A stretch of 64,000 nucleotides of DNA from a virus. Under the pieces are notes generated by a model, which was given only the letters and a program-made list of their open reading frames with translations, had not been told where the DNA came from and did not search any database. The stretch is taken from IMG/VR virus record IMGVR_UViG_3300020446_000003, positions 33,461 through 97,460 of that record. One strand, written 5' to 3'. This document shows positions 1,529 through 63,089 of this stretch, piece by piece. Both the position numbers and the translations under genes were made by a program. Numbering within the stretch: position 1 is the first letter of the stretch; each line of letters begins with the position of its first letter.

Positions 1529-4351
1529 ATGGCTTCAACAAATAGAATTTTCGTTAGTCCAGGTGTTTTTACATCAGAAAAGGATTTAACATTCGTAACA
1601 AGACAAGTGGGGGTAACTACTTTAGGGTTACTAGGGGAAACTCCTAAAGGACCAGCATTTGAACCAGTATTCATCTCAAATTATGATGAATTTACTTCTT
1701 ATTTTGGTGGTTTAGATCCTGCTAAATATAAGGGCAACGGATACCCAAAATTTGAACTTAATTATATTGCGAGATCATTTTTAACTCAGACTAACCAACT
1801 TTATGTAAGTAGAGTATTAGGTTTATCTGGTTATAAAGCAGGAAATGCGTGGTGTATCACTTTAGACGCAGCTGCAGACCCTTCAACGGCAGCATCGGCA
1901 AGTACATCTACTTTTACTATGACATACAGTGCTAGTACAGGAGGTTCACCACTAACATTAGACTTTGATAGTGCAATTCTACAAGAATTATATGATGAAG
2001 GTGAAATTAGTAGTAGTTTTAGTGATTTAGGTTTAAAAGGAACTGGTGATACTATATCTATTTCTACACCGGCATATATAAAAGTAGGTACAACATTTTC
2101 AGGTGCTACTTTTGACTTAACTATAAACTCCACAGGATCTGGTAGTACTACTTCATTTGTAACTGGTAGTACAACAGGTACAGTAGTTACTTATACGGCA
2201 TCTTCATATGGTATTGATGGTAGTGTAGTGGCAACTTTAAGATCTAGAGGTAATTATGGTGGAGACCAAATATTAGATTACACAGTATCAGGTATAACAG
2301 ATGCTAGTATGACAAATACCTCCGCTATTGTAACTAATCCATTTGGTAACTTTACTATAAGTGGTACGACAAGTAGTGGTAATGATTTTGATTATAATGT
2401 TTCATTAGATAGAACTAAAAAGAATTATTTACCTAACGTATTTGGTGTTTATGCACAAGATAAAGAGACTGAACTTTTCGTAGAGGAATTATTCATTAAT
2501 AGTTTAGATGATTTAAACACCGCAGGAAAAGTTAGAGGTTTAGATATTACGTTCCTTAGAATTAGTGGAGATTCAACTAATAACCTAAGTAACTATGAAG
2601 AAAAATATCAATCAGCCGCTTCACCATATGTTTTATCAGAATTAAGAGGTAATAAATTACAAAGATTATTTAGGTTTATTACAATTTCTGACGGTGATGC
2701 AGCAAACAGAGATATTAAATTCTCAATTATTAATATTAAACCAGATGATAAGACATTTGATTTAATAGTTAGAAGGTATAATGATACAGACGCTAATTTA
2801 AGTGTTATTGAGAAATTTTCTAAATTATCATTAGATCCGAGAGATAATGGATTTATTGGTAGAAAGATAGGTACTTCAGATGGAGAGTTTCCATTAAGAA
2901 GTAATTACATAATGGTAGAGATGGCAACAGATTACCCAACTAACGGTATTCCAGCAGGTTTTGAAGGTGTACAAGTTAGAGATTACATAGGTGATAGAAC
3001 GGCATTACCACCACAAATAGAATATGGAACAGAGTATCCATCACTAAATAATTCACAATTAAGAAGATATTATTTAGGTCTTAACACAACTATTGGTGTG
3101 GATCAAGATTTCTTCGATTATAAAGGTTTAGATGCAGTTACTAACTTAGCATATACAGGTAAATCAGATGGTTTCCATTTAGACGTAAATGCAGAAGGTG
3201 CTGAAATATCAGCGGGTGACGATAGTTACTTCCCATCATTACAAGTGGGGATTTCAGCGTTTACTACTGAAGCTTCACTAGTAGGTGGACCATATGAAAA
3301 AGTAAGTGCTAGAAAATTCACATTTGCACCTTATGGTGGTTATGATGGATGGGATGTTTATCGTTTAGATAGAACAAATACTGACGCATACACTAAAACT
3401 GGAAGTAAAGGTAGTGAAGGATTAACTAATGGTACGTTTACTACTTATACAACATCAGAAGGTGATGACGGTATTACTTCTGACTACTACGCATACTTAG
3501 AAGGTATTTACACTTATAATAATCCTGAAGCAGTTAACATCAACGTATTTGCAACTCCAGGTTTAGACTTAAGAGATCAACCTTCATTAATTGATGCGGC
3601 AGTAGATATGGTTGAAAATGATAGAGCAGATTCATTATATGTAATTACTACTCCTGATACGGATAGTTCTGGTGAAACTGTTTTAACTACGGATGAAGCG
3701 GTTGATATATTAGACGATTCCGGAATTGATAGTAACTATTCTGCAACTTACTTCCCTTGGTTACAAATGAATGATACAGAAAACAATCAGTACATTTGGT
3801 TACCACCAACTTTAGAAGTTGTTAGAAACATTGCTTTAACGGATAACGTAGCATTCCCTTGGTTCGCAGCAGCTGGTTTAAACAGAGGTACAACAAACGC
3901 AATTAAAGCTAGAACAAAATTAACCTTAGATCAAAGAGATGATTTATATGAAGGAAGAATTAATCCAATGGCAACATTCTCAGATGTAGGTGTTTGTATT
4001 TGGGGTAATAAAACCTTACAATCTAAAGATACGGCACTTAACAGAATTAATGTTAGAAGATTGTTATTACAAGCTAGAAAACTTATTTCGGCAGTATCTA
4101 TTAGATTATTATTCGAACAGAATGATGATGTTGTAAGAAATCAATTCCTTTCATTAGTTAATCCAATATTGGATAATATTAGAAAAGAAAGAGGTTTAAC
4201 TGACTTTAGAGTTGTATTAGATGATACACCAGAATCTATCGACAGAAATGAATTAAATGGTAGAATATTCATTAAACCGACAAGATCTTTAGAGTACATT
4301 AGTATTGAATTTAATATTACTAATACTGGAGCATCTTTTGATGATATCTAA
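1529..4351 (+). CDS. gp18: Tail sheath protein (gp18-like)
   Basis: Encodes 940 residues that polymerise around the tail tube and contract during infection. The N-terminus has the sheath signature: ISPGVF-type start (VSPGVFTSEKD), then TTLGLLGETPKGPAFEPV and NYDEFTSYFGG. The C-terminal domain is also typical, with INVRRLLLQARKLISAVS, FEQNDDVVRNQFLSLVNPIL and a final strand region RSLEYISIEFNIT. Between residues about 112 and 300 there is a Ser/Thr/Gly-rich beta insertion, and the protein is much longer than T4 gp18 (about 660), so it probably carries extra surface domains. It is flanked by a late-type promoter and an intrinsic terminator, so it is expressed alone, as expected for an abundant protein. 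Confidence 0.95.
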   Translation: MASTNRIFVSPGVFTSEKDLTFVTRQVGVTTLGLLGETPKGPAFEPVFISNYDEFTSYFGGLDPAKYKGNGYPKFELNYIARSFLTQTNQLYVSRVLGLSGYKAGNAWCITLDAAADPSTAASASTSTFTMTYSASTGGSPLTLDFDSAILQELYDEGEISSSFSDLGLKGTGDTISISTPAYIKVGTTFSGATFDLTINSTGSGSTTSFVTGSTTGTVVTYTASSYGIDGSVVATLRSRGNYGGDQILDYTVSGITDASMTNTSAIVTNPFGNFTISGTTSSGNDFDYNVSLDRTKKNYLPNVFGVYAQDKETELFVEELFINSLDDLNTAGKVRGLDITFLRISGDSTNNLSNYEEKYQSAASPYVLSELRGNKLQRLFRFITISDGDAANRDIKFSIINIKPDDKTFDLIVRRYNDTDANLSVIEKFSKLSLDPRDNGFIGRKIGTSDGEFPLRSNYIMVEMATDYPTNGIPAGFEGVQVRDYIGDRTALPPQIEYGTEYPSLNNSQLRRYYLGLNTTIGVDQDFFDYKGLDAVTNLAYTGKSDGFHLDVNAEGAEISAGDDSYFPSLQVGISAFTTEASLVGGPYEKVSARKFTFAPYGGYDGWDVYRLDRTNTDAYTKTGSKGSEGLTNGTFTTYTTSEGDDGITSDYYAYLEGIYTYNNPEAVNINVFATPGLDLRDQPSLIDAAVDMVENDRADSLYVITTPDTDSSGETVLTTDEAVDILDDSGIDSNYSATYFPWLQMNDTENNQYIWLPPTLEVVRNIALTDNVAFPWFAAAGLNRGTTNAIKARTKLTLDQRDDLYEGRINPMATFSDVGVCIWGNKTLQSKDTALNRINVRRLLLQARKLISAVSIRLLFEQNDDVVRNQFLSLVNPILDNIRKERGLTDFRVVLDDTPESIDRNELNGRIFIKPTRSLEYISIEFNITNTGASFDDI

Positions 4352-36047: not shown

Positions 36048-37871
36048 ATGAAAAAGAAAGTAAATTATAATAGTAGAAATTTTGCTGAAGTAAGGGCAGA
36101 ATTAATTGGTTTCATCCAACAATATTATCCTGAAGTGTTTTCAGATTTTAATGATGCATCAGTTGGTATGATGTTATTAGAACTAAATGCTGCAGTGGGA
36201 GATATGTTATCTTTCCATACGGATAGAATGTTCAATGAAACACAAATAAACTACGCACAAGAAAGATCTTCTTTATTAGAATTAGCAAGAACTTTTGGTT
36301 TAAAAATACCTGGAAACAGACCTAGTATAACTATTGCTAATTTATCTGTTACAGTACCAGTAGATGAACAAGATGGTGATAGACCTGATTATAATTATGC
36401 ACCTATTCTTTTAAAAGGTACACAAGTTACCGGAGCGGGTAAAGTATTTGAATTACCTATGGATTTAGACTTTTCATCTCCATTTAGTAGTAGTGGTATA
36501 CCTAATAGAACGGTAATACCAAAGTTTAATGAATCAGGAGGTGTAGATAATTATGAATTAACTAAACAAGCATTAGTTATCAACGGAATTACTAAAGAAT
36601 ATAAAAGAGTTATTTCTAGACCCGATTATAAACCTTTCTTTGAGGTAATATTACCTGAAGATAACGTTCTTTCTATTGAAAATATTATTACATTAGAAGG
36701 TACTAATTTAACTACACCACCAACACTTAAAGAATATAGTGACTTTAATAATAATTATTATGAAGTAAGTGCACTGGCGGAAGCCGAAAAGTTTATAGAA
36801 GATCCTAATACACCAACTACAACCGAAGGTATTTTACCGGGAAGATGGAAAAATATACCTCAAAGATTTATAACGGAATATACTGATAATGGATTTTGTA
36901 AAATAACTTTTGGTGGTGGTGAAATAGATACGTCAGAATTAAATGATTTTATTGGTTGTAGAGGACAAATAAATGAAATAGGTAATTTTGTTAATAATGA
37001 TTCATTAGGTGTAATACCAGTACCTGGTAGGACTATGTACATTAAATATAGAATTGGTGGGGGCGCTGATAGTAATATCGGACCCAATGTATTAAAAGGA
37101 TTGGGTGATGTTTTTATGATTACACCCGGAGAGGATGCAACAATTAATTTAAACGTAAGAAATAGTTTAACATCTAATAACCCAATACCTGCAATTGGTG
37201 GAAAAGAACAACCTTCGTTAAACGAAATAAGACAATTAGTTAAATACAATTTTGCGGCACAAAATAGGTGTGTCACAATAAAAGATTATTTATCAAGAAT
37301 AAGTTTAATGCCAGGTAAATTTGGTATTCCATTTAGAACTGGAGTATGGGAACAAAGAAATAAAGTCAATGTAACTATATTAGCATTAAATGAAAATAGT
37401 CAATTAACTAACCAATCTACTGACACATTAAAAGAAAATATTGCGGAATACCTATCAAATTATAGAATGTTAAATGACTATGTTACAATCAAAGATGGTA
37501 GAATTATAAATCTTTCTTTTGAAATATCTTTATTTACTGATAAAACTACTTCTAAAGGTGAAATTATGTCTGACGTAATAGAATCGGTAGAAGAATATTT
37601 TGATATTAATAATTGGGAAATGGGACAGAACGTTTATTTAGCACAATTAATAGAAAATATTAATAATGTTGGTGGAGTACTTAATGTTACTGACATTAAA
37701 ATATTTAATAAAGTAGGTGGGGAGTATTCGTTAAATGAAATATCCCAACCTTATTCTGATGATGCAAGTAAACAAATAGATATTTCAGATGATTATACAT
37801 TATTTGGTGAACCTGATGCAATGTTTGAGATTAAATTCCCAAATAGAGATATAAAAGTAAGGTTTAAATAG
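36048..37871 (+). CDS. gp6: Baseplate wedge protein gp6-like (gpJ family)
   Basis: Encodes 607 residues. The N-terminus has the gp6/gpJ signature: RAELIGFIQQYYPEVFSDF, NDASVGMMLLELNAAVGDML, SFHTDRMFNETQ, with residues ERSSLLELARTFGLKIPG. The C-terminal half has the segments NEIRQLVKYNFAAQNRCVTI and KDYLSRISLMPGKFG typical of the wedge-dimer part. gp6 builds the continuous ring that connects wedges in the baseplate. Length is near T4 gp6 (660). Confidence 0.92.
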   Translation: MKKKVNYNSRNFAEVRAELIGFIQQYYPEVFSDFNDASVGMMLLELNAAVGDMLSFHTDRMFNETQINYAQERSSLLELARTFGLKIPGNRPSITIANLSVTVPVDEQDGDRPDYNYAPILLKGTQVTGAGKVFELPMDLDFSSPFSSSGIPNRTVIPKFNESGGVDNYELTKQALVINGITKEYKRVISRPDYKPFFEVILPEDNVLSIENIITLEGTNLTTPPTLKEYSDFNNNYYEVSALAEAEKFIEDPNTPTTTEGILPGRWKNIPQRFITEYTDNGFCKITFGGGEIDTSELNDFIGCRGQINEIGNFVNNDSLGVIPVPGRTMYIKYRIGGGADSNIGPNVLKGLGDVFMITPGEDATINLNVRNSLTSNNPIPAIGGKEQPSLNEIRQLVKYNFAAQNRCVTIKDYLSRISLMPGKFGIPFRTGVWEQRNKVNVTILALNENSQLTNQSTDTLKENIAEYLSNYRMLNDYVTIKDGRIINLSFEISLFTDKTTSKGEIMSDVIESVEEYFDINNWEMGQNVYLAQLIENINNVGGVLNVTDIKIFNKVGGEYSLNEISQPYSDDASKQIDISDDYTLFGEPDAMFEIKFPNRDIKVRFK

Positions 37872-47551: not shown

Positions 47552-50500
47552 ATGCCACATAACAATCAAAATAATAATCAAACTAATAATAACTCTAATA
47601 AGGTTATTAAAGTAACTGGTTATGCCAAAAGAAAATTTTTTGATGGTGGTATAGAATATAGAGATTTTAGTGATGATTTAGTAGGTTTACAATTAACTAA
47701 TGAAGGGGGTACACCTTTATTTACATTGGGTAATTTTAAAGTTACTACTAACTTAAGTCCTAAATTAAATAAAACTTATAATCAAGGAACTTATTCTGAT
47801 TTTTTTAGTTTAGATGATTTAGATGATGGACAACAGATAAGTTTAAAAGTACAAAAAAATCAAAAAGCAGGGTTAAATTTAGACATTACTAACCCATTAA
47901 GTTATATACTCTATGGTTCTGCAGAAGAGAAAATAAGAGTATCTTTAGAATATATCAATGAATATTTTCCGGCAGCCATTTATGTAGATAATGTTATAGG
48001 TACAGTTAGTGGTAATAATATTACTAACTATAGTTATGATAGTTTAAGTGATGAATCCACATTTTATATTAACACAAATTACTTTAACAATCCTTTTAAT
48101 ATAAAATATACAGTGGATAGGAAAAATACTTCTGATGAAGACACTTCTAATCCTTTGAGAAATTTAACTTTGAATCATAAAAATTATGTTGTAGAACACA
48201 ATGGAATAAGTAAAAAAATTAAATTTTTAACCGGTTCTACCACTACAACAAATGGGATAATTAGAGTAGTTGTAGACGGAAACCCATTTCCTGAAATAAC
48301 AGGTATAAATTTTTCACAGTTTACTTTTTTAAATGGAGCATCAAATGCATCTATACCATTTTTTATTAAACCTAATGAAATACAATCTGAAAATTTCTTT
48401 GCTGGATTAAATAATTTAGAAAAAAACATTTTAAATAGAAATGTTTATCCTATTTATACGGCTACTTTCAGTACTCCTAAAGAAACTAGTCAAGGTGTAA
48501 TTGTATATAGTGATGAAAAATTAACCTTTCCAATATTAAGTGATGGTTATAATTTGAATTTCTTTGATGGACTTTATGTAACTTATCTTAATAATTTAAT
48601 TTCTATTGGTGAAAATTTAGATAAATTTAAAACTGATATTATAAAAAGAAAATACACTGCAGAAGTTATTACAGGTTTTGATACTTTACCATCTGGTGAC
48701 GGATCTGAAGATTTAGAATTAGATGGTGCAAAAGCAACAAAACTATTAAGAATTTATGGTATAGAATTCGATGAAATTAAAAAATATATTGATGGTATTA
48801 AATTTGCACATGTTATAACTTATGATAAGAAAAATAATACACCGGATAGTTTAGTTAAAGATTTAGCTAATATGTTAGGGTTTGGTGAATTTGATTTTTT
48901 AACTGATGCAAATATACTAAAAAATGTTTTACCCAGTAATGGAGTTGGTTTAATGAGTGGTACATCCACCAATCTTAGTTTAGAAGAAATAGATATAGAA
49001 TTATATAGAAGATTAATTTTAAATGTTGCATGGTTATGGAAAAGTAAAGGTGCTAGAAAAGCAATAGAATTTTTATTTAGATTTATTGGTGCACCTGAAT
49101 CTTTAGTTAATTTTGATGAATATATTGTTTTAGCAGATAAACCAGTAAACATATCACAACTTAAAAGTATGTTATATGTTTATACAGGAAGTTCTGATTT
49201 AAAAGACTTACCATTTGATAGTGATGGTTATCCATTACCTACACCTAATGGTGAAAAAGTTTTAATTGGGTTTGATAATACAACTACACCCCCATCTCCA
49301 ATATATGACACTAGTTGGTTTCAAAAAGAAGGTGGTTGGTATAGAGAAACAGGTGGGTTAAACCCACCAATAGACATAACCGAAGGTAATAATGCACATG
49401 AAGGACCTTATGATAGAGGTTCTTTTTATATGAATCAGTTTACTACATCTATTTACCCCAATGATATAACCAGTAATTTTATTACCTTAACAGGTAACAC
49501 CATATATCAAAACCAATTTTTTAATTATAATGATGGTTTTATTAACGGTACAATAGATAATGATATTTTATATATCACCCCTATTAATCCATTAAATAAT
49601 CAAATTATAACGGAAGGTCTTGAAATTGAATTTTCAATAGTACCTTCACCCCCTATCTCCGGTGGGACTACCATATTTCAAGATTTATGTATTCAAGCAA
49701 AAGAAGAATATGATGCATGGGTAGAATTAATTAAAGAAAATTGTGAATTAGTTTATTCTCCTGAATGGTTTAGAGTACAACAAAATTATATTGTCGCAAA
49801 AAATAATTTAAACAAGGAAATTAGTAGTAGAAATGGAAATGATAATGATGCTTTAGAAATATGTATCAATTTTGACTGTGATAGTATTGAAGTAGTTCAA
49901 AACCCATGTGAACAATATACTATGGTTGAGGACGATGGTTTAATTTATTTTGTAGACGAAAATGGAAATCAAGTGAATTTTGATTCTTTCCCACAATGTT
50001 GTGTTGCAGCAGGTGGAGAGTATTTTTCTTATATAAATCAAAGTGGACAAGAATCTTTATTTTGTGCTAAAGAACCCCCATGTATAGGTAAACCAATTAA
50101 TACTACAGGTGAGGCAGTTGTGTGGGAAATAGAGGGAGTAAATGCAGTACCTGATAATATAATAGAAATTAGACCATCAACTAAACCAGTACCACAATAT
50201 GAGGATAAATGTATTAGACAATCTAATAGGGTAAGATTTGATTCTGAAGAAAGTAGAATAAAGTTTCTTCAAGATTGTACAACCAGACTACGTTTAGAAA
50301 GTGGTGTAGGTGAAAGTAATGGTATTTCTGGTTGTTATCAATTAACAGAAGCAGGAGAATTTTATTTTGGGTTTAAATCTAAAGCAAATAACACTGAGTT
50401 TACAACTCGAATTAGTAAAAATGAAGCTCCCTATGTAGTATATGATAAAAATAGTAAACCGGTAGGTTATATACCTAATACAACCGGTATTAGTTTAATT

Positions 50501-53500
50501 AGTGAAGGGGTGTCTGCAATGAATTATGTTAAAAGAAATAAAGGTATTATTTACCCTACTTACAAACAATCATTTAGTCAAAGTACAAGAAATAACCCTC
50601 AAAATGCATTGGATAATTATTTAGCAGAAGTGAGGGCAGGTAAGGATGTACCTAGTTTCCCTAAATATTTTAAACCTATCGATTGTGACGGTAAATCCAC
50701 AACTTTAATTTCTAGTGAAGAGTGTTGTGCATACTATGGTTTTGATCATTATTATGTAAATATAACACAAGAAGATGGTAGTGTTACTAGTGTAGTTTAT
50801 TGTAGAGGAAGGCAAAATGATGTGGGAGAATTACCAATTGATGAGACTAAACCTAATGATAGTACATCTCCTAGACCTAAACCTGGAAAAGGTGGTAAAG
50901 GAGAGTTATACAATCCTACTAAAGGTATTGATAAAGAAATTGAAACGATAAATAAAGAACAAAAAGAAGTAACTAAAAAAATAGAAAATAGTAGAACTTT
51001 AACTAACAAACAAAAATCTAATTTACGTTTAGAAAAAATAAATTTAGAACAAAGAAAAATTGATTTATCTACACAAAAACAAAAATTAAATGTAAAAAAT
51101 ACACGTACCATCCAACCAGCATTAGAAAAGGGTTATACTAAATACGTACCGGGTAGTAATTTAAATGCAGTAACAACTAAAGGAGATGAAATAAGTGTAA
51201 TAAAAGATAGAAAAGGTGTATACAATAAAGGCATAAAAGACAATAAAGGAGATAAAGTAACTACAGATTTTGGTTCACCCTTTGGTAATCCTGACTTACA
51301 AGATATTACTAATTGGAAACTTTCTTCTGTAGATCAATATGGTAGAATAACATTTACACCTGTGGATAGAAACGATAGTTCAATATTGAATTGGGAATCG
51401 ACTTCTGAAAGCGGTGCAGATTTATATAAAGAATGTTGTTTGAGTAAGGGTTATGCTTTTGGAGAATTTCAGATAAATCCCGCAAATAATGAACTTGTAC
51501 CTTATAATGGACAACCTAACAGTTTCACTAATGGTGCTACTTTTAATGCATGTATCGAACCTACTCATACACCATGTGATGATACAACGGATGTAAAATT
51601 AATTTTTGGAAGTAATGGATCGGATGGTTTCTTCTTACCTGAAAATACTGAAAGTAATGAAGTAACTATTAAGTTTGATTATATGATTAAGTATGACGCA
51701 GAGTCACTTATTAATTGTGCAGGAATTGAAGTTTGTCCACTTCCCTTAGATTTATATACTAATAGTATCTATAATTTAGATTGTAGGAACTTTATAGTTT
51801 TTACACAATCAGAAGAATATAAAAATATATTACAAAAAAATGTATTATATATAGATACTGATATTGTTCCAAATTCTGAAGAATCTTTAGATTTAACTAA
51901 ACCAGATAAAGATGGAATACCTAACTTAATACCTTATTGGGATACTAATAATATACAAGTATGGCAAACACCGGGAATTCAACAGACTATTGAAGATGGT
52001 GAATGTTGTACGGCATATGGTGGAGAATATGTTAATAAAGAAAGTTGGGGTAAAGTTAATTTTGAAAACGTAAGAGCCATTAAAAATGATTTTGATAATA
52101 CATTAAGAGAAGTATATAAAGTAGGTGTAACCTCAACTAACTTTCCTTCATGGGTAGATGATGATTTTAAATCTACTGCGTCAAAACTTTTACAATATAC
52201 TGAAGAAGTACAAAATATTTTAAATGATGAGTGTCTTAACTATGAAATATTTAATGGACAAAATTATTGTGATGATTTTGATAAAATTATTACTACTGAA
52301 AAAGTATGTGCATTATTAGTACCTAAAAAATTAGGTGGATATAGTGAAATTTTAAAAGAATATTGGAGATTAATAAATCAGTTAACTTTAATGGAAACTC
52401 AACTTACAATATGTGTTGAAAGGAATGAAAAAATAGGTGATTTAATTAAAGAAGTAGATAAAGAAAGAATTAAAGAAGAAGTAGATAAAGAAAAGAACAA
52501 AGAAGATAGTAGAAAAAGTGAAGAAGAACTAGAAACTGAGTACTCACTTAAAGAACGTGAATTTAGAAACATTGAAAAACAAATCAATGATATCACTGAA
52601 ATAACAATTGCTATTGACTCAGTAAAAGAAGAAAATTTACCTAAAATAAATTGTAATATATATCAAGATCAGATAAAATTAATACAAAATTATAATGTAG
52701 ATGAGTTTTGTAGAACAGAAACTAATGGTGTATCTGATAATCCTGATGTGGTGTTTACCGCATATAATAGATGTGTTGAAAGAAAAAGATTAGAATTAGG
52801 GCAAGAATTAAAAAAATATCAAGAGTTATATCAAAACTGTGTAAAAAGTAATGTTATTAGTGATGAAATAACTAAAGCAACAAGTAATAATGATTTAGTT
52901 ACTAAAGATAGATTAACTACTGAATATGATTTCACATTAAGAAATATAGATGAATTACAATCTACAGTGTATTGTGAGGATATAAATGAGCAGAACGAAC
53001 AATTAAGAGTTACTACTGAACAAGAAAATAATATTCAAAAGAATGTAGATATAGTCGCTAAAATATTAGATGTAGATAGTGATACAATAAGAAATGGTAA
53101 TACTACCGATTTATCTACACCACAAAAAATAGAAGTTACTAGAATTCTTAATACACAAAAGAATGTAGAAAACAAATTAAAAATTAAGAAAGAAGAAATA
53201 GAAAAAGAACTTACTAAAATAAGTAATGATAAAGAAAGAATTAAAAATGAATTAGAGGTAGAGGAAAAAGATAAAGAGGAAATTATTAAAAATATTAAAG
53301 ATGTTAAAAGTAATTTAGAAAAAGAATTAGGGGATAAAAAACAAATAAATTGTTGTAGAGAAACTTTAAGTTTAACTCAAAAACTTTTAGAAGAATTAAA
53401 AGAAGTAAGAAGTGGAGTTTATTATGAAACAGATACTTTATATCAACAATGGTATCTACAAAGATATAATAACTATTTATCGTATGTCCAAAGTAAAATG

Positions 53501-55810
53501 GCTACGGCATTTGACTATATGGATGAACTTAGACTGAGTTTTAATTTAGAAGTAGATAATAATTCTATTGGTAGTATACCTCCAAATGATATTGTAACTA
53601 ATCTTACAACATTACCAATTATGGATGATAGTAATCCAATATGGACATTTAATCCACAAAATTATAGTGGGGTAATTATAGGAGGTTCTCAATATTATAG
53701 TAACCTTTTAGAAGATTCAATAACAGTTGCATTGATACAACAAGGATTTAGTGGTTTAGATGCAGTTTTTGAACCGAAGTGGCAAAATTTCGAATTAAAA
53801 TTACCTCAAAGTGTTATCGAAAATTTAAATGGTGCATATCCTAATAAACAATTTTTCTTATCATTTATGTTGGAGCAATATGAATGTAATGTGTGTTTAT
53901 TGTTAGATAATATACAAATTAATTATAAAACATATGATATATTACCTTTTAATAATACTGCAGGTGATGGTTTACCAGAATTGAGTTGTGTTATAGATAA
54001 TAGAAAATCTTGGGTGTATGTGGGTGATAGTATAAAACCCGTTAGTTATTTACCAGATGGTGAATGTCAAAAAAATGAAGTAACTTGTGCAACTCCTTTA
54101 CAAATAACTGCACAAAATAGATTATGGCAAAATTTAGAGTATAGATATACTGAATATGACTTTAATCATTCAGACTTAATTATTAATTCTAAATCCGCAT
54201 CATTCCAAATAGATCCTTCTAAGTCTATTGAGTGTGACGTTTATAATTTTTGGAAAAATATAGACTGTGATGAATGTCCTTCTCCGTGTACCAGTGGTGA
54301 TAGTGTAACTTATGAAGGAGAATTTTTATACACTGGCGGAACATCCCAAAGTTATAGTATCCCATTATCTGCAACGTCTACTGGTACTATGTTAAGTGAT
54401 TGTGAAATTTTTAATAGTACGTTAAAAAATATTGTAGAAAATATAAAGGAAGAGTATTATACATTAACCGCAGATTATCCTTCTTCATTAAACGCAAGTT
54501 ATTACGATTTAATTGAAAAAGGTGGTAGTAGTGAAGAATTATTAATTGTAGATAATGATTGTAACACACAAACTTTTGTAATAGGAGATAGAGAAAATCT
54601 AAATAACGATCAAAGGTTAATTGTTGAGGAAGGTGATGGTACTATATCATTATTTGGTTTATATGTTTATAGTGGTTCAACACCATATAGTGGTGGTGAA
54701 ATAACAGATATTATCAGTGGAGTTTCTGCACAAACCTTTAATCAAACATCTGATATGACTGAAGAATGTTGTAAAAATTTAAATACAATATTGTCAAATA
54801 AAGGTAAATATGGTTTAGGTTTAGATAAAGACTATGTATGGAACGAATCACTCAGTGGTTGTACGTGGAGAGAAATAAATGATGGACAAGGGGATTGTAC
54901 TCATTGTGGTAATACTACACATTCTTCATTTACAGGAACTAGTAGTGGGGTTACTTGTGAGGTGGTAAATAAAACAATATGTGTAAATCCTTTAGATTTC
55001 TTAGATCAACCACCTTCTAAAATTAAAGTAAAAGAAGTATTTGACGAAATGGTACAAAGTAATCTTATAAATGCACAAAATAGACAAACTATTAGTGGAT
55101 ATCCTACTTTAAAATTATTTTACGAACTTTATTTAAAAGCTAGTAATTGTGGTGAACAATATAGTGGTAAATTAACATATAATAACCTATTCCAATTTAT
55201 GGATTTAATAGGTGATTATTGGTTAGAGTTAATTGAACAAGTTATACCATCTACTACAATAATGGAAGGGTGTGATAATTCTGGTAAGGTTTATAGGAAT
55301 ACTATTTTTGATAATAATAAATTTGTTTATAAAAAATATGCGTTAAATTATTTAGAAGTGACAAATGATTGTACTGTTAGTGGGGTAACTGATAATTCTA
55401 TAGGACAAGAAACAGTAGATGTGGCAGTAGAGGAAATTTGTTTAGGTGGTGGTTGTTTACCACAAGAAAGTAATGATTGTCAAGAAGAAATTCTACAATT
55501 ACAACAACAAATAAGTGATTTACAATCTCAACTAGAGACTACTACTAATCAAATAAGTGCAACACAATTAGCAATTAATACCATTAAAAATGATATTAAA
55601 AATTTAATCTTTGTTAATAAACCTGCTAGAGAACAAAAAGAAGTCACTCAAAAAGAAAGGGAACAAATTAAATTACAACAAAAAGAAAAAGAAAGTTTAA
55701 GAGATTTAAAAAAGATAAAACAACAACAACAGAATAAAGAAACGGAGGCTAGAGTAAAAAGAAATATAAAGGAACAATCTACCTCAATAAAAAGAAATAG
55801 TAGAAGTTAA
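47552..55810 (+). CDS. Giant baseplate wedge/fibre protein with P2 gpI/gp7-like motif
   Basis: Encodes 2752 residues, the largest gene here. After a low-complexity Asn/Gln start and beta domains, residues about 480-520 read ELYRRLILNVAWLWKSKGAR with KAIEFLFRFIGAPESL, the helix-turn pattern of wedge proteins related to P2 gpI and T4 gp7 (LYRR-x-LLN-x-x-x-L-x-KSKGT-x-x-AIE). Residues beyond are beta modules with many cysteines, including repeated SECCAYYG/GECCTAYGGEY-type elements. Residues about 1090-1180 and 1630-1950 are long charged coiled coils (KEEVDKEKNKEDSRKSEEEL). The C-terminus is Gln-rich coiled coil (EILQLQQQISDLQSQLET) and then basic. It appears to be a wedge protein fused to a very long fibre-like extension. 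Confidence 0.68.
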   Translation: MPHNNQNNNQTNNNSNKVIKVTGYAKRKFFDGGIEYRDFSDDLVGLQLTNEGGTPLFTLGNFKVTTNLSPKLNKTYNQGTYSDFFSLDDLDDGQQISLKVQKNQKAGLNLDITNPLSYILYGSAEEKIRVSLEYINEYFPAAIYVDNVIGTVSGNNITNYSYDSLSDESTFYINTNYFNNPFNIKYTVDRKNTSDEDTSNPLRNLTLNHKNYVVEHNGISKKIKFLTGSTTTTNGIIRVVVDGNPFPEITGINFSQFTFLNGASNASIPFFIKPNEIQSENFFAGLNNLEKNILNRNVYPIYTATFSTPKETSQGVIVYSDEKLTFPILSDGYNLNFFDGLYVTYLNNLISIGENLDKFKTDIIKRKYTAEVITGFDTLPSGDGSEDLELDGAKATKLLRIYGIEFDEIKKYIDGIKFAHVITYDKKNNTPDSLVKDLANMLGFGEFDFLTDANILKNVLPSNGVGLMSGTSTNLSLEEIDIELYRRLILNVAWLWKSKGARKAIEFLFRFIGAPESLVNFDEYIVLADKPVNISQLKSMLYVYTGSSDLKDLPFDSDGYPLPTPNGEKVLIGFDNTTTPPSPIYDTSWFQKEGGWYRETGGLNPPIDITEGNNAHEGPYDRGSFYMNQFTTSIYPNDITSNFITLTGNTIYQNQFFNYNDGFINGTIDNDILYITPINPLNNQIITEGLEIEFSIVPSPPISGGTTIFQDLCIQAKEEYDAWVELIKENCELVYSPEWFRVQQNYIVAKNNLNKEISSRNGNDNDALEICINFDCDSIEVVQNPCEQYTMVEDDGLIYFVDENGNQVNFDSFPQCCVAAGGEYFSYINQSGQESLFCAKEPPCIGKPINTTGEAVVWEIEGVNAVPDNIIEIRPSTKPVPQYEDKCIRQSNRVRFDSEESRIKFLQDCTTRLRLESGVGESNGISGCYQLTEAGEFYFGFKSKANNTEFTTRISKNEAPYVVYDKNSKPVGYIPNTTGISLISEGVSAMNYVKRNKGIIYPTYKQSFSQSTRNNPQNALDNYLAEVRAGKDVPSFPKYFKPIDCDGKSTTLISSEECCAYYGFDHYYVNITQEDGSVTSVVYCRGRQNDVGELPIDETKPNDSTSPRPKPGKGGKGELYNPTKGIDKEIETINKEQKEVTKKIENSRTLTNKQKSNLRLEKINLEQRKIDLSTQKQKLNVKNTRTIQPALEKGYTKYVPGSNLNAVTTKGDEISVIKDRKGVYNKGIKDNKGDKVTTDFGSPFGNPDLQDITNWKLSSVDQYGRITFTPVDRNDSSILNWESTSESGADLYKECCLSKGYAFGEFQINPANNELVPYNGQPNSFTNGATFNACIEPTHTPCDDTTDVKLIFGSNGSDGFFLPENTESNEVTIKFDYMIKYDAESLINCAGIEVCPLPLDLYTNSIYNLDCRNFIVFTQSEEYKNILQKNVLYIDTDIVPNSEESLDLTKPDKDGIPNLIPYWDTNNIQVWQTPGIQQTIEDGECCTAYGGEYVNKESWGKVNFENVRAIKNDFDNTLREVYKVGVTSTNFPSWVDDDFKSTASKLLQYTEEVQNILNDECLNYEIFNGQNYCDDFDKIITTEKVCALLVPKKLGGYSEILKEYWRLINQLTLMETQLTICVERNEKIGDLIKEVDKERIKEEVDKEKNKEDSRKSEEELETEYSLKEREFRNIEKQINDITEITIAIDSVKEENLPKINCNIYQDQIKLIQNYNVDEFCRTETNGVSDNPDVVFTAYNRCVERKRLELGQELKKYQELYQNCVKSNVISDEITKATSNNDLVTKDRLTTEYDFTLRNIDELQSTVYCEDINEQNEQLRVTTEQENNIQKNVDIVAKILDVDSDTIRNGNTTDLSTPQKIEVTRILNTQKNVENKLKIKKEEIEKELTKISNDKERIKNELEVEEKDKEEIIKNIKDVKSNLEKELGDKKQINCCRETLSLTQKLLEELKEVRSGVYYETDTLYQQWYLQRYNNYLSYVQSKMATAFDYMDELRLSFNLEVDNNSIGSIPPNDIVTNLTTLPIMDDSNPIWTFNPQNYSGVIIGGSQYYSNLLEDSITVALIQQGFSGLDAVFEPKWQNFELKLPQSVIENLNGAYPNKQFFLSFMLEQYECNVCLLLDNIQINYKTYDILPFNNTAGDGLPELSCVIDNRKSWVYVGDSIKPVSYLPDGECQKNEVTCATPLQITAQNRLWQNLEYRYTEYDFNHSDLIINSKSASFQIDPSKSIECDVYNFWKNIDCDECPSPCTSGDSVTYEGEFLYTGGTSQSYSIPLSATSTGTMLSDCEIFNSTLKNIVENIKEEYYTLTADYPSSLNASYYDLIEKGGSSEELLIVDNDCNTQTFVIGDRENLNNDQRLIVEEGDGTISLFGLYVYSGSTPYSGGEITDIISGVSAQTFNQTSDMTEECCKNLNTILSNKGKYGLGLDKDYVWNESLSGCTWREINDGQGDCTHCGNTTHSSFTGTSSGVTCEVVNKTICVNPLDFLDQPPSKIKVKEVFDEMVQSNLINAQNRQTISGYPTLKLFYELYLKASNCGEQYSGKLTYNNLFQFMDLIGDYWLELIEQVIPSTTIMEGCDNSGKVYRNTIFDNNKFVYKKYALNYLEVTNDCTVSGVTDNSIGQETVDVAVEEICLGGGCLPQESNDCQEEILQLQQQISDLQSQLETTTNQISATQLAINTIKNDIKNLIFVNKPAREQKEVTQKEREQIKLQQKEKESLRDLKKIKQQQQNKETEARVKRNIKEQSTSIKRNSRS

Positions 55811-56593: not shown

Positions 56594-59530
56594 ATGGCGA
56601 AAATTAAAGGAAATATTACGAATCCACTTACTGTAAATGGTAACATTATTGTAGAAAATGAAGTAAGGACAGAATTAGATATTAATTTAAATATTAATTA
56701 TTTAGCAAATTCACTTTCTCCGTCTTTATTTACTGTAAATAATGCGTATTTTTTGGATAATTTTTCTCAGATTAAAAATTTAATTTTTAAAAATGTACCC
56801 GTATCTTTAGGTAATGTAGCTTTAAATACTTCATCAGTAAATAAATTATGTTTATTTAAATACGAAGTAGACCCAAATGGAGTATTACAGGAAATAGATA
56901 TATTTGATGATATACCTATGCAATATATTGATGGTGGTAAAACTTATTTACACTACGGTGCAATAAGTGAAAAGAAAATTTATTTGGGGTGGGAGCCAGT
57001 AAGTAATGAAGATAAGTATTCACATGAAGAAAGATCTGACGTTTATGGATTTGATTATCCACAGTTTACTCCTAGAGGTACTCGTAAAATCCCTATTTCT
57101 GGTAGTAATGATACTTTATGTGGACCTATTACTTACGAAGGAAACGAATACACATACGATAGATTAAATTATAATTGGTTATTTGGGCAACGAGCAGGAA
57201 TAAATTTCCAAACTATTGAAACCGGTGCAACACCAGTAGTTATAACTGGTTCTGTAGTTTCACAAGAAGGTTGTTCTTCAATATCTAATCAAAACGGAGA
57301 TTTATTATTTTATACAGATGGAAATACTATTTATACAAGTGGTAATACAGTGATGCTACAGGGTTCTAATTTAAGTAGTTCTGGCACATCTACACAATCA
57401 TCTCTAATTGTTCCTCAACCCAATAGTAAAAACTATTATTTATTTACAACAGATTATGAAGGCAATCCTAATGGGTTTGAATATAGTATTGTTGATATGT
57501 TAAAACAAGATGGAGAAGGACAAGTTACTTTAAAAAATCTAAAATTGATTCCTTTTCCTATAACTGAAAAAGTTACTGCTTGTTCACATGAAAATGAAGT
57601 AGACTATTGGATAATTACACATACTAGTGGAGATTCTAAATTTTATTCATATAGATTAAATACTCGTGGTTTAATTGGTCCTGTTATTAGTGACACAGGA
57701 GTTACACATACAACTAGTAGAGGTTATATGAAAACATCACCTGATAGTAAAAAATTAATTTCATTATTATATGATGAAAACATAATTCAGATATTAGATT
57801 TTAATAATACTGGTGGTACATTATCTAATGAAATTTTAATAAGTGGTGATACTAGATTTGGACAAGGACCTTATGGGTTGGAGTACTCGTCTGATTCTTC
57901 TAAATTTTATGTCAGTGATGGGGCAGCTAATTTAATTATACAATATGATTTGTCTTATAGTTCTGCAACTCAAATGTTAGATAATAGTATTATAGTTGCG
58001 GAGTTACCGAAAGATACTAGTTTAGGTGCATTACAAATGGGCCCTGATGAAAAAATATATGCGGCAGACTATTTAAGAAATTTCTTACATGTAATTCATA
58101 GACCTAATGGTTTAGGGGTACAATGTAATTTTAGAGAAAGAGGTTTTTCACTATCTGGAATTAGTAGTGGTGTTACATCTACATGGGGGTTACCTAATGT
58201 GGTAACTAGTAAAACACTCTCTTGTGATAGATATGTGTATATAAGTAAAAGAGAAAGAACACCTTTTGACTTTGAATTAGTAATGAATGATGTGTCAGAT
58301 GTAGTAACACCTAATAAACTTAACTTTACTGCAGAAATTTATCCGTACAATGTGGAATCAGGTGCATTTGATAGAGAACCTGTATATGAACAATTTTATG
58401 ATTATACTGAATTTAGTGCAATTACTGGAAATAGCGAAACTAAAATAAATATACCACTTAATAGAATTGATGAAGGTGAGTTTTTAATTAAAGGTTATTA
58501 TGATTACCCAATAAAAACTTTATTACAGAGACAGTTAGAAATAAGAAGAAATACTGTTAATACATATAAAATTGGTACGGAATATAATATCTATAATCCT
58601 GAAACGGATTGGTATTTCTTAAATATATACGAAGCAGATAAACCATTTTTTGTTAATACGGATATTGCTAGTGGTAATTTAATAGGTAATTTAACAGTTA
58701 ATTCATTTATTACAACATCAGGACAAACAATATTTGGGTATCAGTCTTTATCTGATCCTATCGTAACATATAATGGTGTACAATTAGCAAAAGGGTTAGA
58801 ATATAGTTCTAACACTGAAACTCAAGGGGCTTCCTTTGTTGAATTTTATACACCGACATTAGAAAATAGAATTGTTACATTGGCATTTGTTAATGATGGA
58901 CAACCTGAAAATTTAAAAGTGGATACGTATGTAGTTACATCACCTATAGTGAGTGGTGCAACTAATAAACAACCTGATGATATTAAATTATATTATAACA
59001 CTACAGAAAAGACTTTTGAATATTATTTACCTGTTTTACCTCAAGGTGATGTAGGATTGTCATTAAATGGAGAACTGTTATCTAATAATATTGAATATTT
59101 AATTTCATCTTCAGACAATAAAAGAATTATAATTTTAGTAGAGGTAAAACCAAGAGACATCATTCAAGTATTTTATAACCCAATAACTGGCTTATTTGGA
59201 CCTTTACAAACTAATAAACCAACATTATCTTGGACAATAAGTAACGCACCCATTGTGGGACAAAGTGGTGTGTTTACTGTGGAAGTAACTGATGTAGATG
59301 ATAAAAACTTTGAAAATATACAATATATTGCAACTACACCTTATATTATAGGAGAAGATAGTTATTCAGTAGATATGGATTTTAGTGATGCAGTTGCAGG
59401 AACAAGATTAATATATAGGGTAAAAAATCAAAAGTTTTATACACCTATTGTTGGAGAAATAATAACAAGTATTGCTTATAGTGACACTGTTCCGATAGAA
59501 ATAGTCACAAATAAGGGAAATATTTATTAA
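56594..59530 (+). CDS. Tail fibre protein with Bacteroidota-type beta-propeller
   Basis: Encodes 978 residues. After an N-terminal beta part, residues about 194-540 match the beta-propeller of large secreted Bacteroidota proteins that carry gliding-motility/type IX-secretion C-terminal signals: NWLFGQRAGINF, EGCSSISNQNGDLLFYTDGN, STQSSLIVPQPNSKNYYLFT, ITEKVTACSHENEVDYWIIT, then GYMKTSPDSKKL and GALQMGPDEKIYAADY. The typical sorting signal is absent here. The rest (540-978) is a chain of beta domains with a phage-type ending. A tail fibre or receptor-binding role is inferred from its position among fibre genes and from the late-type promoter. The propeller assignment rests on remembered family consensus. 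Confidence 0.75.
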   Translation: MAKIKGNITNPLTVNGNIIVENEVRTELDINLNINYLANSLSPSLFTVNNAYFLDNFSQIKNLIFKNVPVSLGNVALNTSSVNKLCLFKYEVDPNGVLQEIDIFDDIPMQYIDGGKTYLHYGAISEKKIYLGWEPVSNEDKYSHEERSDVYGFDYPQFTPRGTRKIPISGSNDTLCGPITYEGNEYTYDRLNYNWLFGQRAGINFQTIETGATPVVITGSVVSQEGCSSISNQNGDLLFYTDGNTIYTSGNTVMLQGSNLSSSGTSTQSSLIVPQPNSKNYYLFTTDYEGNPNGFEYSIVDMLKQDGEGQVTLKNLKLIPFPITEKVTACSHENEVDYWIITHTSGDSKFYSYRLNTRGLIGPVISDTGVTHTTSRGYMKTSPDSKKLISLLYDENIIQILDFNNTGGTLSNEILISGDTRFGQGPYGLEYSSDSSKFYVSDGAANLIIQYDLSYSSATQMLDNSIIVAELPKDTSLGALQMGPDEKIYAADYLRNFLHVIHRPNGLGVQCNFRERGFSLSGISSGVTSTWGLPNVVTSKTLSCDRYVYISKRERTPFDFELVMNDVSDVVTPNKLNFTAEIYPYNVESGAFDREPVYEQFYDYTEFSAITGNSETKINIPLNRIDEGEFLIKGYYDYPIKTLLQRQLEIRRNTVNTYKIGTEYNIYNPETDWYFLNIYEADKPFFVNTDIASGNLIGNLTVNSFITTSGQTIFGYQSLSDPIVTYNGVQLAKGLEYSSNTETQGASFVEFYTPTLENRIVTLAFVNDGQPENLKVDTYVVTSPIVSGATNKQPDDIKLYYNTTEKTFEYYLPVLPQGDVGLSLNGELLSNNIEYLISSSDNKRIIILVEVKPRDIIQVFYNPITGLFGPLQTNKPTLSWTISNAPIVGQSGVFTVEVTDVDDKNFENIQYIATTPYIIGEDSYSVDMDFSDAVAGTRLIYRVKNQKFYTPIVGEIITSIAYSDTVPIEIVTNKGNIY

Positions 59531-59574: not shown

Positions 59575-61779
59575 ATGAGTTACATAAATAAACAAAATAC
59601 CGCACTAGTAAGAGTAAAGTTAACTGATATAGGTAGGGAACAATTAGCACAAGGAAAATTGACTTATAATTCTTGGTTAGCAGGTGATTCAGAGGTAGAC
59701 TATAATTACGTTAAGGGATGGAAAGAATTTGTTCCTAGTAGCGACGCTTCAACCGGAGAGTTTTATTTTTATGGTGGAGATGGTTCAGTAACTAAAAATA
59801 TTTATTCTAAGGTATTAAGACCTAAAGATGAACAACCTTATTTTACATCTTTTTTATTAGACAATAATAATGAGTTTATACAATCTATTGATACTAATAG
59901 TAGTCTACAACTAATCAAAGGGGTTGTAAGTAATCAAGCGGCAGATAGAGGATTTTTCTCAGGATCTACAGTAGATTTAGGTTTAACTGCACAAACTTCA
60001 CAAAGATTTATTAAGGAAAGTGGAACAATAGATTTAATTAATTTTACAGGTGAAATAGATACTACTCCATTTGTACAAGGGGTATTAAGTGGTATAACTT
60101 TAACTGCAACTAGTGAAGATGATTTTATTATGTTTAGGTTTAGTAATCCTACTTTGGGTGACATTACTAATTCAACAATGACTGCCGCAACCATTAATCA
60201 ATTTTACAATATAACTAGTATTAGTGGTTCTACTATTAAAGTAGATAGAGAATTACCAATGTTTAGTGGATTTGGGGGTACAATTATTACATATTATACT
60301 TTTCCGGGAGGTGACGATCCAGAAGACACATATTATGGATTACCTTCTCTTTCTTCTTATTGGAATACAGGTACACTTTCTTTTGATAGTAGTTGTGATA
60401 TTTGTGTAGAAAATATTCCAGTTTGGAATATGAATAATGTTTGGACTGAAAATATGGCAGGACAATTTAAAGATGATTTAGAAAATTATCATAGTCATAA
60501 TTTATTTGGTTCAGAGCAATATGCAGGTACAAAACAATTTTTAAAATATAACGAAACACCTACTCTAAATTTAAGTAGTGATAGATTATCGGTGAGTTAT
60601 ATGGATCCATATATAAAAGGAATATCAATTATACATTATACTAACAGTTGTATTTCTAATTTTTATGGAGAAATGTTTAATATTGATGGTAGTAGTGGAA
60701 AATTATTAAATTTAGATATACCAGTATTATGGCATAGACGAAATGAAGGGACAGGAAGTGGTACTACATTAGGTATGAGATTTGTGAGTGATACTATTGA
60801 AAAAACTTTAACTAATACTGATATTGAATACTATGATTTAATTGAATTTAGTGGGATGAGTGTCACACCTAATGCACCGTTAGCGGTTGGTAAAGTATTT
60901 CCACAACTTAAAATAGTTGTGATAGATAATGAAGAATTATTGGCTGCTATGTCATACAAATCAAATAGAAATTATACTTTACCTGATTTATCAGCTAGTT
61001 TAATTCCACCGATAGATGGGGATTGTACGGGATGTATAGAGGCAGGTGAAACAATGTATTTGACTTATGGTTTACAATACAGTGGTAGTAGTGGGTTTAC
61101 ATCTGTTTTACCTTGTCAACGATACACAGTATTAGATAACAATACGGCAACAGATAAAGATTTACAATTTAGAATAAATAATGTAGATCAGTTACCCTAC
61201 ATGAGAAAATTAGAATCTCCTTCATATGATGGTTATGGATTTTATGCTAATAGATTTGTTTTATTAAGTCAAAAAATTAATAAAGCCAACCAAAGTAGAC
61301 CTAACCCATCAGAATGGAGAGAAATAGATTATACTAGTGTTGATATTACCAGTGGTGCGTCGGAAACAATTAGTCCATTCTTATTACAAAATCAAAATAG
61401 TGCAAATACAGGATTTATTTTGAAAGGAAGTCAATTTAATGGTGCTAGTGCAAACACATTTAATTTAGGTGTAGAATTAGATTTACCTAAAGGTGAAAGT
61501 TATGGTAAATTAAATTTTGGTGATGAAAGATTATTTTACGGTAATTTAAGAACTTTTATTGGAGCAACAATTTATAAAACCCTTTTTACAATAAATGTAG
61601 ACGGTGCACAATTACAAAGTAGTTCTAATACCACTTATACTATCGGTGAAGATAGGTTTGTGTCTGAAGTAGGTATATTAGATAATGATGGTAATCTAGT
61701 GATGGTAGGGAAACTTTCTCGACCAATAAGAATAGCGGATAGTAGTACTGCCTCTATTGAATTAACAATTGATTTTTAA
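59575..61779 (+). CDS. Tail fibre protein, collar-fibre type (paralogue of next gene)
   Basis: Encodes 734 residues. N-terminus ALVRVKLTDIGREQLAQGKL, then LAGDSEVDYNY, and C-terminus RFVSEVGILDNDGNLVMVGK are the pattern of phage tail-collar fibre proteins (gpH/DUF3751-like): an LT-x-x-GR-x-x-L helix, a GDS-x-x-x-Y turn and an EVGI-x-D-x-x-G-x-L hairpin near the end. The same three landmarks occur in the next gene, so the two are paralogues with different middles. The middle here (residues about 130-650) is beta-rich with cysteines (SSCDICVE, GDCTGCIEAG), probably the variable part. Confidence 0.68.
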   Translation: MSYINKQNTALVRVKLTDIGREQLAQGKLTYNSWLAGDSEVDYNYVKGWKEFVPSSDASTGEFYFYGGDGSVTKNIYSKVLRPKDEQPYFTSFLLDNNNEFIQSIDTNSSLQLIKGVVSNQAADRGFFSGSTVDLGLTAQTSQRFIKESGTIDLINFTGEIDTTPFVQGVLSGITLTATSEDDFIMFRFSNPTLGDITNSTMTAATINQFYNITSISGSTIKVDRELPMFSGFGGTIITYYTFPGGDDPEDTYYGLPSLSSYWNTGTLSFDSSCDICVENIPVWNMNNVWTENMAGQFKDDLENYHSHNLFGSEQYAGTKQFLKYNETPTLNLSSDRLSVSYMDPYIKGISIIHYTNSCISNFYGEMFNIDGSSGKLLNLDIPVLWHRRNEGTGSGTTLGMRFVSDTIEKTLTNTDIEYYDLIEFSGMSVTPNAPLAVGKVFPQLKIVVIDNEELLAAMSYKSNRNYTLPDLSASLIPPIDGDCTGCIEAGETMYLTYGLQYSGSSGFTSVLPCQRYTVLDNNTATDKDLQFRINNVDQLPYMRKLESPSYDGYGFYANRFVLLSQKINKANQSRPNPSEWREIDYTSVDITSGASETISPFLLQNQNSANTGFILKGSQFNGASANTFNLGVELDLPKGESYGKLNFGDERLFYGNLRTFIGATIYKTLFTINVDGAQLQSSSNTTYTIGEDRFVSEVGILDNDGNLVMVGKLSRPIRIADSSTASIELTIDF

Positions 61780-61790
61780 AAAGTATTGAG

Positions 61791-63089
61791 ATGGGATTTA
61801 TTAGTTCAGCAACCACAGTATCAATAACGGCAAAATTAACTTTAGCTGGTAGACAAAGATTACTTACACAAAGTAATCAAATACTAACCCATTTTGTATT
61901 AGGTGATTCAGATGCAAATTATCAAACTAGTGGTATTTTAAGTTCGGGGTTAGTTCCCGCAAATAGTGGTGATTTAGGTGAAAATGGGGGTGTAAATGAT
62001 AATATAGACGTTGGGGTTGGTATTAAAAATAAACTTTATTTAAGTAATACACAAATTACCATAAAATCTGTAGAATCAGGTTCTAATGTTATAACTAATA
62101 CTACTGTACCGTTAGGTGAAACTGTTGTAAGTGGTGATAATTTAACATATACAGTTATAGATAAGAATGATAGAACTTCTTCATTTACTAACTATTTTGA
62201 AAGTTTGAGATTACCTATATTAGAATCTAAGAAAAATTTATTTACAGGAACTACTTCTACAAAAGGAGGATGGTTAGACACTGCATTTAGTGGTTTAGCT
62301 TCAGATAGAGTATTAATGGTTGTTGTTAATAATGATAGTTATGGTGAATTAATAGATGGTAAAACTATAAAGACAACATTACCTATAATAACTGGATATA
62401 CGTCAGGTGGTGAAGCAACAGGAATAACGACTTATAATTGTTATTCAACATTTGTTAATAGTGGACAATATAGTTTAGTACAATTAGATGCTAAATACAA
62501 AGATAGTTCAGTATTTACTAATGGGTTATTTGGGACTGATTTTCCAGTAAGTTATATGGTTTCAGACAACGTTCAAAAACCTAATAATGACGCTAATAAA
62601 AGTTGGGCTACTGGATATGATGATTTTAAACCATTTAGTGTTAACAACAAACAATTAATTAACACTAAAACAGTTACCCCAACCGGAATAAATGTAGATA
62701 AAATTATTGGTGTTGCGTATTTAGATAAAGGTATTTTAGCATTTACGGACCCCACTATAGTAGATAATATAGCAACTAATTTTACTGGTGATACTGAAAC
62801 AGGAACAGTCACTAATGATTTAGGACTTTATTATTATTCTGGTGGTACTTATAATACCACAGTAGATAGTGTTGTGAATAATTTAGTACAAAACGTAATA
62901 TGTATTGCTGGTAGAGGTGAATTTTTTAGATCTACTAATCCAACAATTGATATTAATGATGAAGTTAGAATTACAGAAGTAGGTATTACTGATGTAACTG
63001 GTGAAGTATTGGCTATCGGTAAAGCAGATAGACAAATTATTAAAAAGAAAAATGATTTTGTAATATTTGATGTACAAGTTGTTTTATAA
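61791..63089 (+). CDS. Tail fibre protein, collar-fibre type (shorter paralogue)
   Basis: Encodes 432 residues. N-terminus SITAKLTLAGRQRLLTQSNQ, VLGDSDANYQ; C-terminus EVRITEVGITDVTGEVLAIG then KADRQI. These landmarks match the previous gene. It is in the same transcript (11-base gap). The middle is Thr/Ser/Gly-rich beta without motif. It is the last gene of the structural block; resolvase follows 37 bases later. Confidence 0.68.
   Translation: MGFISSATTVSITAKLTLAGRQRLLTQSNQILTHFVLGDSDANYQTSGILSSGLVPANSGDLGENGGVNDNIDVGVGIKNKLYLSNTQITIKSVESGSNVITNTTVPLGETVVSGDNLTYTVIDKNDRTSSFTNYFESLRLPILESKKNLFTGTTSTKGGWLDTAFSGLASDRVLMVVVNNDSYGELIDGKTIKTTLPIITGYTSGGEATGITTYNCYSTFVNSGQYSLVQLDAKYKDSSVFTNGLFGTDFPVSYMVSDNVQKPNNDANKSWATGYDDFKPFSVNNKQLINTKTVTPTGINVDKIIGVAYLDKGILAFTDPTIVDNIATNFTGDTETGTVTNDLGLYYYSGGTYNTTVDSVVNNLVQNVICIAGRGEFFRSTNPTIDINDEVRITEVGITDVTGEVLAIGKADRQIIKKKNDFVIFDVQVVL

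Follow-up and report, generated by a model that had tools for sequence, protein, structure and literature searches.

A beta-propeller related to those of Bacteroidota T9SS surface proteins in a tail-region protein of T4-like phages

We describe a phage tail-region protein that is built around a domain common to Bacteroidota surface proteins. By sequence, its beta-propeller shares ancestry with the N-terminal propeller of surface proteins that Bacteroidota secrete through the type IX secretion system (T9SS). We read the protein, with a probability of about 55%, as a virion tail protein of a T4-like Bacteroidota myophage, in which an ancient shared propeller serves as a conserved adsorption platform. 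In the open-access literature we came across no previous account of a phage tail protein with this propeller.

The propeller gene and its setting in the tail module

The window analyzed here is a 64,000-nt stretch of a 97,460-base IMG/VR record. Judged from its genes, it encodes a T4-like phage with a contractile tail (a myovirus). The original prediction placed a propeller-bearing gene at 56594–59530, and an open reading frame with exactly these coordinates encodes a protein of 978 aa that contains all three motifs quoted for it: EGCSSISNQNGDLLFYTDGN (residues 225–244), STQSSLIVPQPNSKNYYLFT (residues 266–285) and GYMKTSPDSKKL (residues 377–388). An identical protein is encoded in a second contig of 198,361 bases. 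The relevant features of the window are as follows.

1529..4351, + strand: contractile tail sheath (PHROG 23, E 7e-62; Pfam Phage_sheath_1C)
36048..37871, + strand: gp6-like baseplate wedge, first gene of the tail-module block (PHROG 219, E 1.5e-20; homologues in Mel-JY01 and immuto)
47552..55810, + strand: 2752-aa tail-module protein (weak match to 1265/1336-aa proteins in the equivalent block of Flavobacterium phage immuto and Microcystis phage Mel-JY01)
55822..56565, + strand: 247-aa coiled-coil protein directly upstream of the propeller gene (variable: 53–83% identity in near relatives, undetected in distant ones)
56594..59530, + strand: propeller-bearing tail-region protein (978 aa, ATG start; full-length homologues 46–100% identical in IMG/VR phage contigs)
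56594..57160, + strand: its N-terminal region, aa 1–189 (phage-only; mostly pLDDT <50; mean pairwise identity 49%)
57173..58213, + strand: its beta-propeller domain, aa 194–540 (homologous to N-terminal propellers of Bacteroidota T9SS-secreted proteins; pLDDT 93.5; Foldseek; most conserved region)
58235..59527, + strand: its C-terminal region, aa 548–978 (all-beta, phage-only; found with the propeller in 28/28 contigs)
59575..61779, + strand: 734-aa protein, always directly 3' of the propeller gene (C-terminal tail common to Mel-JY01 tail-module proteins)
61791..63089, + strand: 432-aa protein of the tail-module block

Also encoded in the window are a tail tube, a T4 baseplate protein, a gp32-like SSB, a RecA/UvsX-like protein, a 5'-3' exonuclease, a DnaB/gp41-like helicase and a ribonucleotide reductase; the last (619 aa, window 33700–35559) matches a B12-dependent (class II) insertion domain. 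Long charged, coiled-coil-like stretches mark the 2752-aa protein, whose resemblance to known phage proteins is limited to one short, weak match.

Among cultured phages, Microcystis phage Mel-JY01 and Flavobacterium phage immuto are two of the best matches for the sheath and wedge (about 27–38% identity). Both have an equivalent block, in which the annotators of immuto name tail fibre and tail spike genes. The proteins encoded at 59575 and 61791 have short C-terminal matches to several Mel-JY01 proteins of that block, and no counterpart of the 978-aa protein was detected in the block of either phage. That the protein is a fibre we infer only from the position of its gene in the tail module. 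Neither PHROG nor INPHARED links it to a known fibre or receptor-binding protein family, INPHARED contains no homologue of it or of its 3' neighbour, and searches of Pfam, PHROGs, NCBIfam and PDB sequences with the single protein returned nothing useful.

Full-length homologues are present in 29 other IMG/VR contigs, which we refer to as class A; the distinct ones that were aligned are 46–92% identical to the window protein. Wherever a class-A contig reaches far enough, the order of genes like those at 47552, 56594, 59575 and 61791 is constant. A search for homologues of the C-terminal region without the propeller found none, and this constant association indicates that within class A the propeller is a fixed part of the protein and not a swapped cassette. 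In one homologue of 1218 aa (L024:4470-8123), a loop of the propeller holds an insert of ~250 aa that matches PA14 weakly, at E 9e-4 and thus below the Pfam cut-off. This loop thus tolerates additions and is probably exposed.

Fold and bacterial relatives of the propeller

AlphaFold2 prediction of the isolated domain, with 26 homologues in the input, gave a beta-propeller with a pLDDT of 93.5 and a pTM of 0.93. In a model of the full-length 978-aa protein, residues ~190–540 reached a pLDDT around 90 and residues 1–187 mostly stayed below 50. The domain has six or seven blades (about 26–27 strands in the model). Foldseek returned 818 PDB matches at E <= 0.001, the best among the matches listed being propellers with TM-scores near 0.5, and the neighbours include lactonases and a lyase. 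The best solved relative by profile (E 4e-11), which is also among the top structural matches, is 1l0q, an archaeal surface-layer YVTN propeller followed by PKD as in many of the bacterial relatives; it is, however, a distant, archaeal cell-surface protein.

Searches with the propeller led to the Bacteroidota. Plasmid tblastn gave matches in five records, all from this phylum (Hymenobacter, Pontibacter, Adhaeribacter), the best at 37% identity over 97% of the domain (E 4e-40). Whole-genome searches with the whole phage protein gave E-values down to 8e-68, with bacterial matches confined to residues 189–540 and none before residue 189, which places the predicted domain border of 194–540 within about five residues of the observed one. 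Chance cannot account for a similarity of this degree. Identity between phage and bacterial propellers is 35–42%, and the 56 positions that they have in common are mostly structural W/G/F/Y residues, among which no catalytic constellation or ligand site stands out. A mixed profile, run over 84,980 species genomes, matched 242 related stretches. The loci retained from it number 78 and belong to Bacteroidota or their kin (Ignavibacteria, Kapaibacteria, Chlorobiota) or are unnamed, with the sole exception of a contig in a Prochlorococcus single-cell genome. The propeller family has no model in Pfam, NCBIfam or PHROG.

In the bacterial open reading frames listed, the propeller nearly always starts at residue 19–42, directly after a hydrophobic leader. 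A CHU_C or Por_Secre_tail sorting domain was matched in all eight relatives tested, in seven of them above the Pfam cut-off, and most of the eight also carry PKD, SprB or Ig repeats. The combination of an N-terminal propeller with a leader and CHU_C (type B) or Por_Secre_tail (type A) makes "Bacteroidota T9SS surface protein" a correct name for these relatives. Proteins annotated as "gliding motility-associated C-terminal domain-containing protein", such as WP_243803310.1 of Hymenobacter tibetensis and L083 of Flavobacterium palustre, belong with the phage copy to one propeller family by sequence, at no more than about 42% identity across the domain. They differ in architecture: the bacterial proteins have a leader before the propeller and PKD/Ig plus CHU_C or Por_Secre_tail after it, whereas the phage propeller begins at residue ~190, between phage-only regions. 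We saw no signal peptide in the phage protein (start MAKIKGNITNP...) and, judged by eye, no hydrophobic leader in its class-A homologues; Pfam gave no match to either sorting domain in the 978-aa protein. With regard to fold and kinship the original prediction held. Neither of the two outcomes that would have refuted it, a model lacking a propeller or matches restricted to phages, was obtained.

Descent was assessed on a quick ML tree that is unrooted and weak at depth. The class-A propellers group as one clade with an SH-aLRT of 99, set off by a long stem, and its weakly supported neighbour is a Flavobacteriales MAG (82). The expectation that the closest propellers would come from one host genus was not borne out, as no named genus stands beside class A, and this absence indicates that the relation between phage and bacterial propellers is old. 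The propeller was most likely taken long ago from a Bacteroidota T9SS-protein gene; we infer the direction, from bacterium to phage, from breadth and paralogy in bacteria, the tree being unrooted.

Other viral contigs and the host

The profile search also found the propeller in further viral contigs, which form classes B and C, and some of these, e.g. L163, may be bacterial. Class B (L149–L162, L164, L167; contigs of up to 261 kb) comprises proteins of 366–474 aa with a hydrophobic leader and a propeller, in most cases followed by a PKD-like domain, and without a sorting domain. In L152, L153, L155 and others, the genes that come next code for a short secreted protein of PKD/Ig-like type and for a CHU_C type B protein of ~200 aa (E 3e-14 in L152, 3e-15 in L155, weak in L153). 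This three-gene arrangement (L152:5923-8482; L155:5923-8462; L153:3386-5899) resembles a single surface adhesin split into adjacent genes. For type A, T9SS cargo encoded by a phage has been described in Cryophage (PMC7468147); for type B, we found no report of such a phage arrangement in the open-access literature. Class C (L170–L178) has diverged propellers, among them a 505-aa protein in L171 and giants of up to 3,400–3,800 aa in L170, L173, L176 and L178, with genes that adjoin likely structural genes. We initially considered two independent acquisitions by classes A and B and dropped them, as an AU test did not reject a joint phage clade (p 0.83) and the joint tree scored higher.

The distribution of the propeller points to a Bacteroidota host. 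The profile search found it in at least 53 of 296 Bacteroidota genomes versus one of 194 cyanobacterial genomes, and that one match is a related phage contig. The Bacteroidota figure is probably an underestimate, as scoring was limited to the best seven candidates of each genome. This class-A phage contig of 83,794 bases (L044 / G005:C4, identical to IMG/VR locus L007) lies within the public single-cell genome of Prochlorococcus sp. AG-409-L21. Its GC content is 29% versus 36–39%, its tetranucleotide composition matches the other contigs poorly, and we saw no photosynthesis gene in it by eye. Of 99 Bacteroidota genomes, 17 encode enzymes 56–61% identical to its glutamine synthetase; among 98 cyanobacterial genomes only one other does so, at 54%. 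We judged Prochlorococcus to be the less likely host of this phage on account of the GC content, the tetranucleotide mismatch and the Bacteroidota-like glutamine synthetase. The data make a Bacteroidota phage sorted along with the cell more likely than a cyanophage, which bears indirectly on the phage of the window. Two observations count against the Bacteroidota reading: one relative comes from a single-cell genome of Prochlorococcus, and a phage reported from Microcystis is among the nearest cultured kin. The predicted Bacteroidota host is supported, by the genome counts and the glutamine synthetase, but not proven. Mel-JY01 (PP395634.1; L207, L208), recorded from Microcystis elabens, is near kin by sheath, wedge and helicase, as is immuto by sheath and wedge; the host assignment of Mel-JY01 may deserve a second look.

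Conservation and possible roles of the propeller

Across 120 phage pairs, mean identity is 68% in the propeller versus 49% in the N-terminal and 54% in the C-terminal region; the propeller is more conserved than the C-terminal region in 118 pairs and than the N-terminal region in 111. For the one pair in which dN/dS was calculated (the window versus L006, dS 0.5–0.75), values are 0.034 for the propeller, 0.058 for the N-terminal and 0.118 for the C-terminal region. The propeller is under strong purifying selection. The faster diversification of an exposed recognition domain that is typical, although not obligatory, of receptor-binding proteins is absent, as the propeller evolves more slowly than both flanks. 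This was counted against a receptor-specificity tip and would suit a structural part equally.

Phages have kept the propeller well conserved, and it therefore probably aids attachment to Bacteroidota. In the mechanism that we favor, the protein would be an adsorption or baseplate-associated fibre of the tail, a virion location suggested by gene context, with the phage-specific N- and C-terminal regions presumably anchoring it. The propeller would form a rigid exposed platform whose loops may attach to something conserved on the surface of the bacterium, and finer host specificity may reside elsewhere. This putative binding mode is modelled on the receptor-binding protein of phi11, a known case of a phage adhesion device that includes a propeller (PMC4901313). 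Gp45 of this S. aureus phage is a tail/baseplate protein with a propeller platform that may work alike. Its propeller differs in having five blades and a cavity that is proposed to take up GlcNAc of teichoic acid, and phi11 is a siphophage of a Gram-positive host; PDB searches gave no sequence relation between the two propellers. Two other phage systems are also comparable in part. The crAssphage BACON-domain protein (PMC6949934) likewise places a domain of Bacteroides-group type inside a phage protein, but as tandem repeats of a carbohydrate-binding type rather than a single propeller. Cryophage is a Bacteroidota phage with T9SS-related domains, but its genes encode secreted type A cargo with sorting domains and not a tail-module protein (PMC7468147).

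The same conservation would suit an internal part. In an unlikely alternative, the propeller acts within the tail or baseplate as a scaffold or hub that binds other phage proteins and has no direct part in host recognition: it is the most conserved region, it is never missing in the 28 contigs, and propellers often act as protein-protein scaffolds (PMC9143113). Mel-JY01 and immuto, however, share the wedge and sheath and have no detectable counterpart of the 978-aa protein, which argues that the conserved tail core can do without it. The relatives of the domain, moreover, are surface-exposed secreted proteins, and the large loop insert in one phage also speaks against an internal hub. Surface exposure of the relatives, which carry T9SS sorting domains, together with the 56 common positions, would also fit molecular mimicry, in which the phage propeller binds the partner of host propeller proteins and uses or competes for the docking site of a host adhesin. 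We consider this quite improbable, as identity is about 40% at best, the tree gives no host-genus match, the shared positions look structural and no ligand was found for any bacterial propeller of the family. Of the proposed phage fibre that copies a host adhesin, the domain homology thus stands, while a rapidly adapting mimic is opposed by the conserved propeller, its ~60% difference from the bacterial domains and its separate clade. A role of the propeller as an enzyme, such as a depolymerase or lyase that attacks envelope polymers, is very improbable. Lactonases and a lyase are among its Foldseek neighbours and propeller tailspike enzymes exist, e.g. the endosialidase tailspike (PMC12632334), but no Pfam, NCBIfam or PHROG enzyme family matched at a meaningful score, and the conserved residues form no evident catalytic constellation.

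If the propeller is a conserved adsorption platform, as we favor, a broader and rather doubtful extension is that widespread T4-like Bacteroidota phages recognize their hosts through the hosts' own T9SS propeller family, by way of the same conserved surface partner, the family having been recruited into the middle of tail proteins, the front of giant virion-like proteins and separate secreted genes. The propeller can also serve to pick out Bacteroidota-linked phages from anonymous contigs. Its long retention in phages also offers an independent handle on a family that heads many secreted Bacteroidota surface proteins. The ligand of the phage propeller, once found, would suggest that of the bacterial propellers, and its discovery would put to the test the idea that surface-protein domains of the host are reused by phages for adsorption.
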